From positions 1-46,471 of the forward strand of contig NZ_JALVAO010000070.1 in the NCBI RefSeq assembly GCF_027011145.1: DNA of 46,471 nt, in the 5' to 3' direction. Shown here one piece after another: positions 2,587-7,021 of the stretch. Within the stretch, counting starts at the first letter, position 1, and each line of letters starts with the position of its first letter. Position numbers and translations under genes: made by a program. Below the pieces are notes generated by a model, which saw only the letters and a list, made by a program, of their open reading frames with translations, was not told the DNA's origin and did not search any database. The DNA comes from Thermococcus sp. GTDB taxonomy: Archaea; Methanobacteriota_B; Thermococci; Thermococcales; Thermococcaceae.

Positions 2587-2712
2587 ATGACAAAAGGCAT
2601 GCTGCCCCCAGCAATAGTTACAGCATTGGTGGAGGTGACAGACATGGTTTTCAAAGTTACAGAGAACGTCCCGAAAGTGGGGGCGGCCCTCCTCCGGGTT
2701 GTGGGGGCGTAG
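2587..2712 (+). CDS. Possible 41-residue hydrophobic peptide overlapping the structured RNA
   Basis: An open frame from ATG 2587 to TAG 2710-2712 would encode a peptide beginning MTKGMLPPAIVTALVEVTD and ending VGAALLRVVGA, hydrophobic and possibly amphipathic. It lies about 20 bases after the predicted transcription start, but no strong ribosome-binding site sits at the usual distance (the nearest GGTGG is about 14 bases away). Its last third coincides with the 5' side of the RNA fold at 2677-2809, so the reading frame may be accidental. I do not recognise it; coding status is uncertain. Confidence 0.2.
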   Translation: MTKGMLPPAIVTALVEVTDMVFKVTENVPKVGAALLRVVGA

Positions 2713-2809
2713 GGACCAATGCTTTCGAGGGGGAAACCCAGGGCTACAGCCCGGGAGGGCTGTCCCTAGGAGGGCGTGGTGATAGGGGTTCGAATCCCCC
2801 CGCCCCCAC
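2677..2809 (+). ncRNA. Unclassified structured RNA with a tRNA-like T-arm and closing stem
   Basis: A GC-rich stretch in otherwise AT-rich DNA folds contiguously. P1: GTGGGGGCGG 2677-2686 pairs perfectly with CCGCCCCCAC 2800-2809. P2: CCCTCCT 2687-2693 with AGGAGGG 2768-2774. P3: GGGTT 2696-2700 with AACCC 2735-2739. P4: AGGG/CCCT plus ACAGCCC/GGGCTGT, 2740-2767, capped by GGGA. A last hairpin, GGGG-TTCGAAT-CCCC at 2785-2799, stacks directly on P1 and has the exact consensus loop of a tRNA T-arm. A second GTGGGGGCG copy at 2701-2709 could replace the 5' strand of P1. There is no D-arm or anticodon arm, so it is not an ordinary tRNA. A promoter-like site upstream and a T-rich stop downstream suggest its own transcript. 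Function unknown; a tRNA-derived remnant or a regulatory RNA are both possible. Confidence 0.5.
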
Positions 2810-3022: not shown

Positions 3023-3409
3023 ATGAGTTCCTTTGATATTGAACATCATCCTGCACTTAAGCCTTTGTGGGACTTTGTGCAAAATATTGAAGAAGTTGTC
3101 TCTTCATCAGATATTGGTATAAGTTCCTCATCTACACTTAAAATAATGAGTCAGTTTGAGATACTTAAGGAAATTGTTGAACTCGAACTAAAGGGTGAGC
3201 CAGGGGGTCAAGTAAATACTGAAATTCTAAACGAGATAGAGATTATTAAGGGGAGACTTGAGGCTATCCTTTCCATAGCTGAGGATAAGCATGATCTCCA
3301 CTTAAAAGCCATTGAATGTGAGCACCTGAGAGAGCTTCTAAGATTTACAATAGTGCTTATAATAATGTTAGCGGGCCTAATTGGTGGTATTAAATTGATC
3401 TTTGGGTGA
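3023..3409 (+). CDS. Small C-terminal membrane-anchored protein inside the restriction locus
   Basis: A 128-residue protein I do not recognise. Residues 1-100 are soluble and mostly helical, with heptad-like stretches (LKEIVELELK, ILNEIEIIKGRLEAIL) suggesting a coiled coil. Residues about 107-127 (FTIVLIIMLAGLIGGIKLIF) form one transmembrane segment at the very C-terminus, so the protein would be tail-anchored with its body in the cytoplasm. It is AT-rich like the PIN gene. Its last bases lie 4 bases before the hsdR ATG and supply its GGTGA ribosome-binding site, implying co-transcription. A 16-codon frame at 2986-3036, preceded by GGTGAG, overlaps its start and could be a leader peptide. A membrane tether or accessory factor for the restriction complex is inference only. 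Confidence 0.6.
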   Translation: MSSFDIEHHPALKPLWDFVQNIEEVVSSSDIGISSSSTLKIMSQFEILKEIVELELKGEPGGQVNTEILNEIEIIKGRLEAILSIAEDKHDLHLKAIECEHLRELLRFTIVLIIMLAGLIGGIKLIFG

Positions 3410-3413
3410 TCCC

Positions 3414-6365
3414 ATGCCTGCTCAAACCCCCGAATACCTCCAGTGCGAGAAGCCCATCCTCGAGCGGTTAAAGGAAAAAGGCTGGACTTACAGGAGGGGC
3501 ATTGAGGTCCTCGAAGATGAAAACGAGCCCCTTCTAATCTCAAGGTTAAAGAATGCGATAGTGAGGATAAACGGAGTTAGCGAGAGGGAAGCGGAGGAGG
3601 CAATCAACCTCCTTAAAGCTACTCCTTTCGGCGTTGAAGGTTCCCGCAGGGTTCTCGACTACCTTAAGAACGGTGTTCCCGTGAAGGATGAGGAAACCGC
3701 TCAACCGAAAAGGCTGATGCTCATTGATTATGAAAACCTCGGAAACAATGAGTTCCTCGTTGCCAATCAGGTCGGCTATCCGTTTAAGACCAAGATACCC
3801 GACATAGTTCTCTATGTTAACGGCATCCCGCTGGTCATAATCGAGTGCAAAAAGCTCAACGTGAGCTGGAAAAAAGCATACGAGCAGATTAAAAGCTATG
3901 AGAAGGAGATGCCCGAGCTCTTCAAGTACGTACAGATCGGCGTTGCGGTTGGGGATAAACCCGTCTATTTCCCAATAGTGCCGTGGCTCAGCAGTGTTCC
4001 AATCTATGAATGGAAAGGGAAAAGCTTTGATGATCTGGACAACCTGGTTGAGCTTTTAAAACCTGAGACCATCCTTGACGTCCTCCGTTACTTCACATTC
4101 TACCGCGAGAGCGGTGGAGCTTTTACAAAGGTTCTGCCGAGGTATATGCAGTACCGAGCGGTTAGAGAGATCGTGAATATTGCCGTCGGTTACGCGAGGG
4201 GCGAGACGGAAAGAAACAGGGGTTTAATCTGGCACTGGCAGGGAAGTGGAAAAACCTTGACCATGATATTCTCCGCATATAAAATCAAGCGCCTGCTCGG
4301 CAACCCCACGATTTTCTTCGTCGTTGACAGGAAAGAACTTGAGAGACAGCTGAGCAATGAACTCAAAGCCGTGGGGCTGAGCTTTGAAGTCATAGATTCA
4401 ATCGAGAAGCTCAGGGAAGTCCTAACTCACGCCGATGGAAAGAGAGGAATATTCATAACGCTCATCCATAAGTTCCGCGCCGAGGATCTCAATGAGGTGA
4501 TGGAGAACCTTAGGAGGAAAAGCAGGAGAAGAAAGACGATAATGAACCGTAAGGACGTCGTGGTTCTCATAGACGAAGGCCACAGAACCCAGTATGGCGA
4601 GCTTGCTTCGACTATGCGCTCGATACTCAAAAGCGCGTCTTTCTTTGCCTTTACAGGAACTCCAATAGCAAAGAAAGGGCGTGACACCTACGCCACCTTC
4701 GGCTATAAGGACAGGCCCTACCTCGACAGGTACTTCATAACGCAGTCCATAGAGGACGGCTTTACCGTGAAGATAGCCTACCAGGCGAGGCTTGAGGAGG
4801 ACGTTCACCTAAAGAGGGAGCTCCTTGAAGCATTTCTCTCATCGAAGCTGGAGGAAATCCCGGAGGAGTACCGCGGAAGGGTAGAGGAGAAGCTCAAGAA
4901 GAGGCTCAACGCGATAAAGGTGTTCCTGAAAAACCCGAAGAGGATCGAAACCATAGCCCGGGACATAGCAGAGCACTATAAGGGGAGCGTGGAGCCGTTT
5001 AAAGCAATGGTGGTAGCGGTTGACAGGGAGTCCTGCGTCTTATACAAGCGCGCTCTCGACAAGTATCTGCCAACGGAGTACACAGAGGTCGTGATGACGT
5101 TCAACCGGGACGACAGTGATGTTATTAAGGAGTATCAAAAAGAGCTTGAAGAGCGTTTCCCCGGAAAAGACATGGCTGAAATCCGCGAGAGAATTCGCAA
5201 GGATTTCAGGAACAAAAGCTTTCCAAAAATCCTGATCGTTACAGATATGCTCCTCACGGGTTTTGACGCCCCCATCCTTCAAACCATGTATCTGGACAAG
5301 CCACTCAAGGAGCATAGGCTCCTTCAGGCAATAGCGAGGACCAACAGGCCCTTCATCAAGAACGGCGAGAACGTCAAACCCTTTGGCCTTATTGTAGATT
5401 ACGTGGGCATATTCAAGGAATTAAAGAGAGCGCTGGAAATCTACGACGAGGCTGACATCGAAGGAGCAACATACAGCGTCGAAGAGATAAAGAAAGAGCT
5501 CAGGAAAAAGATCTCCAAGGCCATGGGATACTTTGATTACCTCGAGCCGAGAAGAGATAGAGAGACGATAATGAACGCGGTTGAGACACTGTTTAGAAAC
5601 AACAAGGGCGAGGAGTTCGGGAGGCTGTACAGGGAGATAAGGAACTACTACAAGCTCCTCAGGGAGGACAGGGACGAGTTCAGAGAGGCCTTCAAATGGC
5701 TCACGGAGGTTTATTATGCATACAGGGCTAAGGTTGATGGTGTTCCGCCGGAAGTTGAACTCAAAGCCGACGAATTCTTCAGGGAGGCCCTTAGGTTCAT
5801 ACACAAGACGGTGGACATAGGGAAGATAAAGGCCGACTTTCCAATAATCGAACTTGACGAAGAGTTCCTCAAGAAAGTAATGAGGGAAAGGGATAAGCGG
5901 AAGGCATTTACTAACCTCCTATTCTCGGTCAGACACTACGTAAACACTCACAAGGGACCTTTAACGGAGGACTTGGTTGAGCAGGTAGAGAGGATAATTG
6001 AAGCCTGGAGACACAAGAAGGAAGAAATCGAGAAGCTCTACGGTGAGCTCCTTGGAATAGCCGGGGAAATAGAAAAGCGCTCGTGGGAGCAGAAAAAGCT
6101 CGGTTTGAACGAGCTCGAATACGCCCTCCTGATGGTGCTCAAGAAGCACGTAAAGACCAATACCAACGAGTTGATCAAAGGGGTCAGAAAGTTGCTCAAG
6201 GAGACTGAAGGGCTTAGGTTCTCCCGTTGGAGGGAGAAAACCGAGATCGTCAGCGAAGTCTCGCGGAAAATTATGCTCTTCATTGTAAGGGAATATAAGG
6301 AGGAATGCGATGACATCATCAAGACGCGCAACGAGCTCCTAGAGGTGCTCAAACGGTGGGGATAA
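3414..6365 (+). CDS. hsdR: Type I restriction endonuclease subunit R
   Basis: The 983-residue motor and nuclease subunit of the type I system, which translocates DNA using ATP and cleaves unmodified DNA. The N-terminal nuclease domain has PDIVLYVNG and VIIECKK (residues about 128-146), the PD-(D/E)XK residues. The SF2 helicase core follows: Walker A WQGSGKTLTM near residue 275, LIDEGHRTQYG (DEAH-type box) near 387, FTGTPI, then TDMLLTGFDAPIL and QAIARTNRP (motifs V and VI) near 615-645. A long helical C-terminal region for complex assembly ends the protein. The ATG at 3414 is chosen because GGTGA lies 4 bases before it; a TTG at 3402 is the alternative. All catalytic motifs look intact. Confidence 0.95.
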   Translation: MPAQTPEYLQCEKPILERLKEKGWTYRRGIEVLEDENEPLLISRLKNAIVRINGVSEREAEEAINLLKATPFGVEGSRRVLDYLKNGVPVKDEETAQPKRLMLIDYENLGNNEFLVANQVGYPFKTKIPDIVLYVNGIPLVIIECKKLNVSWKKAYEQIKSYEKEMPELFKYVQIGVAVGDKPVYFPIVPWLSSVPIYEWKGKSFDDLDNLVELLKPETILDVLRYFTFYRESGGAFTKVLPRYMQYRAVREIVNIAVGYARGETERNRGLIWHWQGSGKTLTMIFSAYKIKRLLGNPTIFFVVDRKELERQLSNELKAVGLSFEVIDSIEKLREVLTHADGKRGIFITLIHKFRAEDLNEVMENLRRKSRRRKTIMNRKDVVVLIDEGHRTQYGELASTMRSILKSASFFAFTGTPIAKKGRDTYATFGYKDRPYLDRYFITQSIEDGFTVKIAYQARLEEDVHLKRELLEAFLSSKLEEIPEEYRGRVEEKLKKRLNAIKVFLKNPKRIETIARDIAEHYKGSVEPFKAMVVAVDRESCVLYKRALDKYLPTEYTEVVMTFNRDDSDVIKEYQKELEERFPGKDMAEIRERIRKDFRNKSFPKILIVTDMLLTGFDAPILQTMYLDKPLKEHRLLQAIARTNRPFIKNGENVKPFGLIVDYVGIFKELKRALEIYDEADIEGATYSVEEIKKELRKKISKAMGYFDYLEPRRDRETIMNAVETLFRNNKGEEFGRLYREIRNYYKLLREDRDEFREAFKWLTEVYYAYRAKVDGVPPEVELKADEFFREALRFIHKTVDIGKIKADFPIIELDEEFLKKVMRERDKRKAFTNLLFSVRHYVNTHKGPLTEDLVEQVERIIEAWRHKKEEIEKLYGELLGIAGEIEKRSWEQKKLGLNELEYALLMVLKKHVKTNTNELIKGVRKLLKETEGLRFSRWREKTEIVSEVSRKIMLFIVREYKEECDDIIKTRNELLEVLKRWG

Positions 6366-7021
6366 AGTACCGCGTAATTCGGAGGAACGTTAAGTATCCC
6401 CGCATCGAGATAAGCCCCCTTGGGGATGTTAAGGTAATAGTCCCGCCAAATGTGAATCCCGAAGATCTTGTGGGGAGAAAGAAAGGATGGATAGAGAAGA
6501 AGCTAAGGGAAATCGAAGAAGCCAGAATGAAGTTTCTTCCGCTTTCCAATAAGCTCCTACTTGACGGTGAATTCTACGAACTCATTGAGTCAGAGGAGTT
6601 CGGGGTTAATCCAAAGTTTCACGTGGTTCTCCTGCCCAAGGACGATTTGGAAACCCTAAAAAGATGGCTGAAGACTCAGCTGAGAGAAGAGCTGGAATTT
6701 AAGGTGAGACTCTTCTCATCGGTCTTCGGAGTAAAGTACAGAAAAATCTACATCCGCTTTCAGAAGACCAAGTGGGCAAGTTGCTCTGAGAAAGGAAATC
6801 TAAGCTTTAACCTGATGCTTATGGCATTACCCGAAGAACTCAGAGACTACATCATAATCCATGAGGTGGCCCACCTCAAGTTCCAAAAGCACTCTCGCAA
6901 GTTCTGGGAACTCGTAAGACAGTATTACCCCGACTACAAACATGCCCAGAAGGGACTCAGGGAGTACTGGCTTGCGCTTCAGTACAATAAAATCTGGAAT
7001 AAACTGAGAGAAATTGCTTAA
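6356..7021 (+). CDS. YgjP-like metallopeptidase domain protein (DUF45)
   Basis: A 221-residue protein of the YgjP/DUF45 family, related to M48-type zinc peptidases. The C-terminal half holds the zinc site IIHEVAHLKFQKHSRKFWELV (residues about 165-185), in which HEVAH is the HExxH motif, followed by the conserved HS.KFW segment; KWASCSEKGNLSFN before it is also a family signature. It starts with GTG inside the end of hsdR (10-base overlap), so it belongs to the restriction operon. This family is often found beside type I restriction genes, but no substrate is established. It may process or regulate the complex (inference). Confidence 0.85.
   Translation: MGIKYRVIRRNVKYPRIEISPLGDVKVIVPPNVNPEDLVGRKKGWIEKKLREIEEARMKFLPLSNKLLLDGEFYELIESEEFGVNPKFHVVLLPKDDLETLKRWLKTQLREELEFKVRLFSSVFGVKYRKIYIRFQKTKWASCSEKGNLSFNLMLMALPEELRDYIIIHEVAHLKFQKHSRKFWELVRQYYPDYKHAQKGLREYWLALQYNKIWNKLREIA

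Follow-up and report, generated by a model that had tools for sequence, protein, structure and literature searches.

A candidate RNA-and-peptide module with a tRNA-like fold in type I restriction loci of Thermococcaceae

Between hsdS and the next gene of a type I restriction locus in Thermococcus sp. lies a structured RNA with a tRNA-type T-arm, into which runs the reading frame of a hydrophobic microprotein. The window analysed here is a stretch of 46,471 nucleotides (contig NZ_JALVAO010000070.1), and its coordinates refer to the plus strand. An earlier note on this window had described the fold at 2677-2809 as a lone RNA; the overlapping frame, an apparent promoter of its own and linked partner genes turn that lone non-coding RNA into a module. 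The structure and the linkage are supported by the comparisons below, and the function is what we infer from them. Taken as a whole, our reading is that of an mRNA with a tRNA-like 3' end, in which translation of the peptide and folding of the RNA exclude each other, serving as a toxin-like or defence cassette, and in our opinion this reading has an even chance of being correct.

The structured RNA and its relatives

The bases at 2677-2809 are as the earlier note had them. There is a perfect 10-bp closing stem, GTGGGGGCGG/CCGCCCCCAC (2677-2686/2800-2809), a T-arm GGGG-TTCGAAT-CCCC at 2785-2799 and a second copy of the 5' strand of the stem, GTGGGGGCG, at 2701-2709, and neither a D-arm nor an anticodon arm is present. 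The tenth pair of the closing stem, however, competes with an inner 8-bp stem, P2 (GCCCTCCT at 2686-2693, AGGAGGGC at 2768-2775), which is conserved in relatives, and the acceptor-like closing stem, P1, is drawn here from 2677-2685 and its partner CGCCCCCAC at 2801-2809. With its fifth pair the T-arm (loop TTCGAAT) spans 2784-2800; that pair is an A-C mismatch in the window as against G-C or U-A in relatives. An inner hairpin at 2741-2766 (stem ACAGCCC/GGGCTGT, lower GGG/CCC, GGGA tetraloop) has its pairs preserved in all five members of the window's group that were compared. The 3' strand of P1 is the 3' end of the conserved element, similarity to relatives stopping within about 14 nt of it. 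On the 5' side, the fold does occupy the proposed extent, but the conserved part begins near 2560, since the reading frame (GTG at 2569 to TAG at 2712) enters the structure. A switch between two folds by way of the second GTGGGGGCG had also been suggested. The alternative pairing is possible in the window's group, in which GGGGGCG of this copy is kept, but it does not define the element, because the repeat is missing in the other group.

Judged by stability alone, the fold departs only moderately from what such GC-rich DNA would give: the minimum free energy is -76.4 kcal/mol (z -2.1), and five of 200 shuffles are equally good. The combination of the T-loop, a 4-bp Watson-Crick stem below it and a 9-bp Watson-Crick closing stem was found in none of 100,000 dinucleotide shuffles, in a test run twice, on the core and on 2540-2840.

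Twelve of 94 Thermococcaceae genomes carry the element, each as a single copy and at the identical chromosomal place; it adjoins hsd genes in 11 of them, and the remaining one (G004) has lost these genes. BLAST of related whole genomes finds it directly after hsdS at 96% identity in G034 and at about 70% in G026, G016, G062 and G021, the last being cut by a contig end. A second, divergent form lies between hsdS and hsdR in G005, G107 (contig QMUE01000023.1), G108, G024 and G091; it was detected by way of orthologous restriction loci that gave no BLAST match, and the G004 member was added by a pattern search. The members are few and fall into these two main clusters, which have architecture and place in common and little sequence outside the T-arm. 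The promoter, the small frame, the closing stem, the inner helix and the T-arm belong to both groups, and in all full-length members the order is TATA box, a frame of 47-58 codons, P1, P2, T-arm and P1'. A T-loop UUCRANU sits on the closing stem in all full-length members except one, which has a 6-nt loop. The peptide profile of one group gave no match to the peptides of the other beyond what shuffles give, so that the relatedness of the groups rests on place and architecture.

Covariation in Thermococcales homologues, which the earlier note had proposed as a check, is present as compensatory changes, in P1 across members and in P2 between the groups. Over P1, P2 and the T-stem of nine divergent members, 95.8% of the cells pair, and eight of 21 pairs have changed on both sides, as against none or one when the partners are slid by 1-3 columns; none of 500 shuffles reached the observed covariation. 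This alignment was put together manually with the pairing as its guide, and its counts lean toward structure, which makes the slide control the fairest guide. Pair 5 of P1 is G-C, C-G or U-G and pair 8 is C-G, A-U or G-U, and pairs 6 and 7 of P2 change from C-G/U-A to U-A/G-C. The window's group taken alone has both-side changes in three pairs. In the second group P1 is followed by an additional hairpin, H1, with double changes in six of its 11 pairs, and judging from the order of the strands P2 would there form a pseudoknot with the H1 loop. A covariance model built from the second group only (R1) gives the window's element 26.8 bits; the background matches that were checked, tRNA-Leu genes, score similarly, and hence the model confirms tRNA likeness and not common descent. 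Overall, the comparison of sequences supports 2677-2809 as a genuine structured RNA that includes a tRNA T-arm.

The element seems to be confined to one family. A phylum-wide DNA search with the sequence of the second group found nothing outside Thermococcaceae, and among 80 hsdR-related loci of other archaea and bacteria (771 kb) it was seen only in one Thermococci contig, apart from a weak match (L143) that is probably a tRNA. Exact matching of two 3'-end DNA patterns to viral contigs gave no match, nor did searches of plasmids and of phages, each with the sequence of one of the two groups. In the same scan of loci, a contig labelled Thermotogota (L090, JAADCS010000131.1) holds an hsdR fragment with 91% identity to Thermococcus hsdR, which looks like contamination or recent transfer.

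The microprotein frame and its promoter

The stop codon of hsdS is at 2536 and the element follows directly. An A-rich BRE-like stretch and a TATA box, TTTAAATA (2532-2539), together occupy 2526-2539 and have the layout of an archaeal promoter; a AAAAANTATAAATA-like sequence precedes every member, and the TATA box of G005, like that of G004, overlaps the stop codon of an upstream partner gene. In T. kodakarensis the distance from TATA box to transcription start is about 23 bp, and 5'-UTRs have a median length of 16 nt (PMC4247193). With this spacing the transcript of the window would start near 2558 and have a leader of near 11 nt. It appears that the element has a TATA promoter of its own.

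The frame that follows (2569-2712; GTG start, TAG stop, ATG at 2587 as an alternative start) encodes 47 amino acids, VGFLLLMTKGMLPPAIVTALVEVTDMVFKVTENVPKVGAALLRVVGA, and in the window both the frame and P1 are intact. In all full-length members the frame starts with GTG about 105-130 nt 5' of P1 and then enters the structure. The final 12-20 codons of the frame also form the 5' strands of P1 and P2, and its stop codon falls inside the fold. The peptides are hydrophobic and most have one TM-like segment; the product, of about 45-58 amino acids, is probably inserted into the membrane. A profile of the small protein finds exactly the 12 carriers among the 94 genomes plus two weak matches, which we dropped as coding noise, as they lie antisense to an apparent nucleotide-sugar epimerase.

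The coding evidence is what separates our reading from the first alternative, namely that the element is a purely non-coding tRNA-like small RNA, a decoy or binding RNA for some protein that recognises tRNA, with an incidental frame upstream. It is true that across the groups conservation is highest in the T-loop and the stems, and that the coding signal of the second group alone is weak: its codon changes follow the trend described next at p 0.06-0.08. In the window's group, however, the changed codons of the frame have a mean BLOSUM score of about 1.5 versus -0.3 in column shuffles (p 0.0002-0.0004), and when the frames are compared such conservative changes are confined to this one, which supports its evolution as a protein. 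Moreover, the frame runs from well before P1 into the structure in every full-length member, and the one member that has two indels retains the same stop codon. We consider the non-coding explanation unlikely, though it deserves to be kept in mind.

A 100-aa ORF at 2520-2822, in another frame, reads the T-arm as GSNPPAP and is judged spurious. There are also minus-strand frames across the T-arm in relatives (L002 1746-1850; L006 9568-9912) with peptides such as GRGDSNPHHHALL; they represent a type of spurious protein that is read from antisense tRNA-like sequence, and such annotations could be used for finding further members.

Partner genes and the restriction locus

In the intervals that separate hsdM, hsdS and hsdR the element has variable passenger genes as its neighbours, and two membrane-protein genes, unrelated to each other, go with it. 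One encodes 286 amino acids, is present in four of the 94 genomes, all of which have the element, and lies directly upstream of the second-group element. The other, of about 400 amino acids, is present in five, again all with the element, and lies directly downstream; its carriers are four genomes of the window's group and G091 (32% identity). G004 has lost hsdM, hsdS and hsdR but retains both the 286-aa gene and the element between the flanking genes, which indicates that the unit can exist without the restriction system. The genome of the window has neither partner gene anywhere. In place of one it has a 128-aa frame which resembles, by eye, the frames that occupy this position in G036 and G090, two genomes without the element; the window copy may thus be an orphan.

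The 286-aa protein begins with a membrane region, in which about five TM-like segments can be recognised. Its C-terminal 58 amino acids match Hfq (PF17209) in Pfam at E 0.004-0.005 and 16.8-17.0 bits versus a cut-off of 27, and the best sequence matches of this domain in the PDB are Hfq as well. The predicted domain is a helix followed by five strands in a model of low confidence (pLDDT 46.8 for the 286-aa protein), with which Foldseek returns Hfq chains at the top (rmsd about 1.0-1.8 A over about 45 residues, E at least 0.046). Each of these three matches is marginal; given that they agree, a Sm/Hfq-like domain is likely. For the ~400-aa protein the predicted structure (pLDDT 71) matched no known fold in a meaningful way and showed no RNA-binding fold.

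The arrangement of these genes bears on a second alternative. A leader-peptide frame that overlaps a structure is the classic layout of an attenuator, and the element could be a cis-acting leader of this kind, in which peptide and RNA together control a downstream restriction or passenger gene. Indeed the element has just this overlap, hsdR or a passenger gene follows it in the direction of the hsd operon, and in four genomes the partner gene begins 15-50 nt 3' of P1'. Against such a role, the apparent promoter belongs to the element itself, the next frame in the window starts only at 3023, 210 nt away, and many orthologous loci have hsdR without the element, for instance G022, where hsdS and hsdR are nearly adjacent. 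A leader role becomes less likely because the element persists in G004 with no same-strand gene close downstream to act upon. In our opinion it is rather improbable, somewhat more so than a purely non-coding RNA.

A few other features of the restriction loci deserve to be recorded. In the hsdM-hsdS interval, where other species have different genes, the window has a variable passenger gene (642-1358) with weak PIN-domain likeness (Pfam E 0.06-0.13). AT-rich palindromes, GTTTATCNATAAAC and GTTAATCCATTAAC, recur 5' of hsdR in a number of relatives (reverse complement of L052 5080-5180, of L054 5139-5195 and of L059 5201; L056 5021-5090), partly within the translated predicted N-termini, and could be operator sites. 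The hsdR of G026 (L007 11110-14069) consists of two overlapping frames of 190 and 795 amino acids, likely a frameshift, and the restriction genes of G075 have a pseudogene-like appearance.

A possible mechanism and comparison with known systems

Returning to the mRNA with a tRNA-like end, we suggest the following course of events. A short gene with its own TATA promoter would give what we take to be a single transcript with two mutually exclusive uses. As a message it would encode the hydrophobic, probably membrane-inserted peptide of some 45-58 amino acids; as an RNA its 3' half would fold in a tRNA-like manner, with the acceptor-like P1 stacked on the T-arm and the inner helix P2 beside them. 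A translating ribosome would have to open the fold, as the closing 12-20 codons also supply one strand, the 5' one, of P1 and of P2. The fold in turn may block or stall translation, or may expose the message to factors that recognise tRNA, such as RNase P or tRNase Z; enzymes of tRNA metabolism or the partner protein might bind it. Most relatives encode a presumably membrane-anchored partner alongside the element, and in one group its Sm/Hfq-like C-terminus might tether the RNA to the membrane.

The peptide would, on this proposal, be harmful or defensive. That the element is toxin-like or defence cargo of the type I restriction locus, the tRNA-like fold silencing a membrane-active peptide as long as neither the host nor an invader disturbs it, is something we can offer only tentatively, as less likely than not. 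To the same degree it is a possible but doubtful step to see here a new archaeal cassette, made of an Hfq-like protein anchored in the membrane (or another membrane protein) and an mRNA whose microprotein frame overlaps a terminal tRNA-like structure, the exclusion between translation and folding acting as an RNA switch for defence or addiction in restriction loci.

Cellular mRNAs with their own coding sequence inside a tRNA-like structure form no established class. Full-text searches of an open-access library, which covers only a minority of the subscription journals, turned up no such element, and searches of Rfam (gathering and permissive), Pfam, PADLOC, NCBIfam and PDB sequences led to no assignment. 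The arrangement, with a partner gene adjoining the element in most relatives, suggests an RNA-and-peptide module that has not been described before. If the proposal is true, membrane-bound Sm/Hfq-like proteins with structured RNA partners would be a novelty in archaea, and an RNA-peptide component would join restriction loci, which are usually seen as protein-only defence. The module is small, single-copy and limited to one archaeal family that has genetically tractable members.

Several known systems are similar in part. The 3' ends of plant viral RNAs such as that of TYMV, and of mascRNA/MEN-beta, likewise have a T-arm stacked on an acceptor-like stem and carry the tRNA-like part at the 3' end of a longer mRNA or lncRNA. 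The present element differs in being a cellular archaeal gene, in that stem and T-arm strand comprise 14-15 nt and not 12, in the coding frame that enters the structure, in encoding no CCA and in having no sequence relation; mascRNA gives a sub-threshold Rfam match only, in permissive mode. Viral tRNA-like structures use pseudoknots (PMC4810234). Type I toxin-antitoxin loci also encode a small hydrophobic peptide, here of about 50 amino acids, and folding of the mRNA could control translation in a like manner; unlike in those loci, a membrane partner protein is linked, and reading of the sequence found no antisense RNA. The C-terminal 58 amino acids of the 286-aa partner resemble Hfq/Sm in sequence and predicted fold, but they are fused to a membrane region and score below the curated threshold of the family. 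Finally, the element sits like other restriction-locus cargo among the passenger genes; it is distinct from such cargo as an RNA-peptide element and in partner proteins for which PADLOC has no model.

A third alternative is that the element is a divergent member of a known RNA family that falls below the curated thresholds, and here the checks suggested earlier were informative. At 2677-2809 ARAGORN finds neither a tRNA nor a tmRNA, and Rfam reports no named family at the gathering threshold. In permissive mode the best match is to the acceptor/T-arm part of tmRNA (RF00023), with 21.2 bits versus a threshold of 47, and tRNA-Sec (RF01852) reaches 28.7 bits, also versus 47, on one relative only (G108). 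As in tmRNA, a tRNA-like domain and a short reading frame are in one RNA; however, the frame has a start of its own and precedes the tRNA-like part, and there is no D-loop, tag-peptide or pseudoknot layout. With tRNA (RF00005) the element shares the UUCRANU T-arm on a closing stem, and it has neither the cloverleaf nor the curated score. Members of the second group end in ACA (ACA or GCA), as an H/ACA guide might, but the window's group has CGA or CAA-like ends and no conserved ACA, and the closing stem surrounds a multi-branched loop, not a guide pocket. Given that the matches rest on T-arm and acceptor only and that D-arm and anticodon arm are missing, we regard a known family as very improbable. 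The least credible explanation is the one once offered for the T-arm, a tRNA gene relic left by a mobile element that integrated at an att site: tRNA genes are common integration sites and a T-arm with a stem does resemble a tRNA 3' end, but the relic is disfavoured because the 3' 31-mer or 28-mer has no parent tRNA gene within three mismatches in the 94 genomes and because compensatory changes maintain the structure across species.

Elsewhere in the window, 8564-8619 matches the Pyrococcus C/D box guide RNA family RF00095 with 46.4 bits, and 6356-7021 is a conserved 221-aa metallopeptidase-like gene, found 3' of hsdR in several loci, whose product we take to be YgjP-type from its HEVAHL motif.
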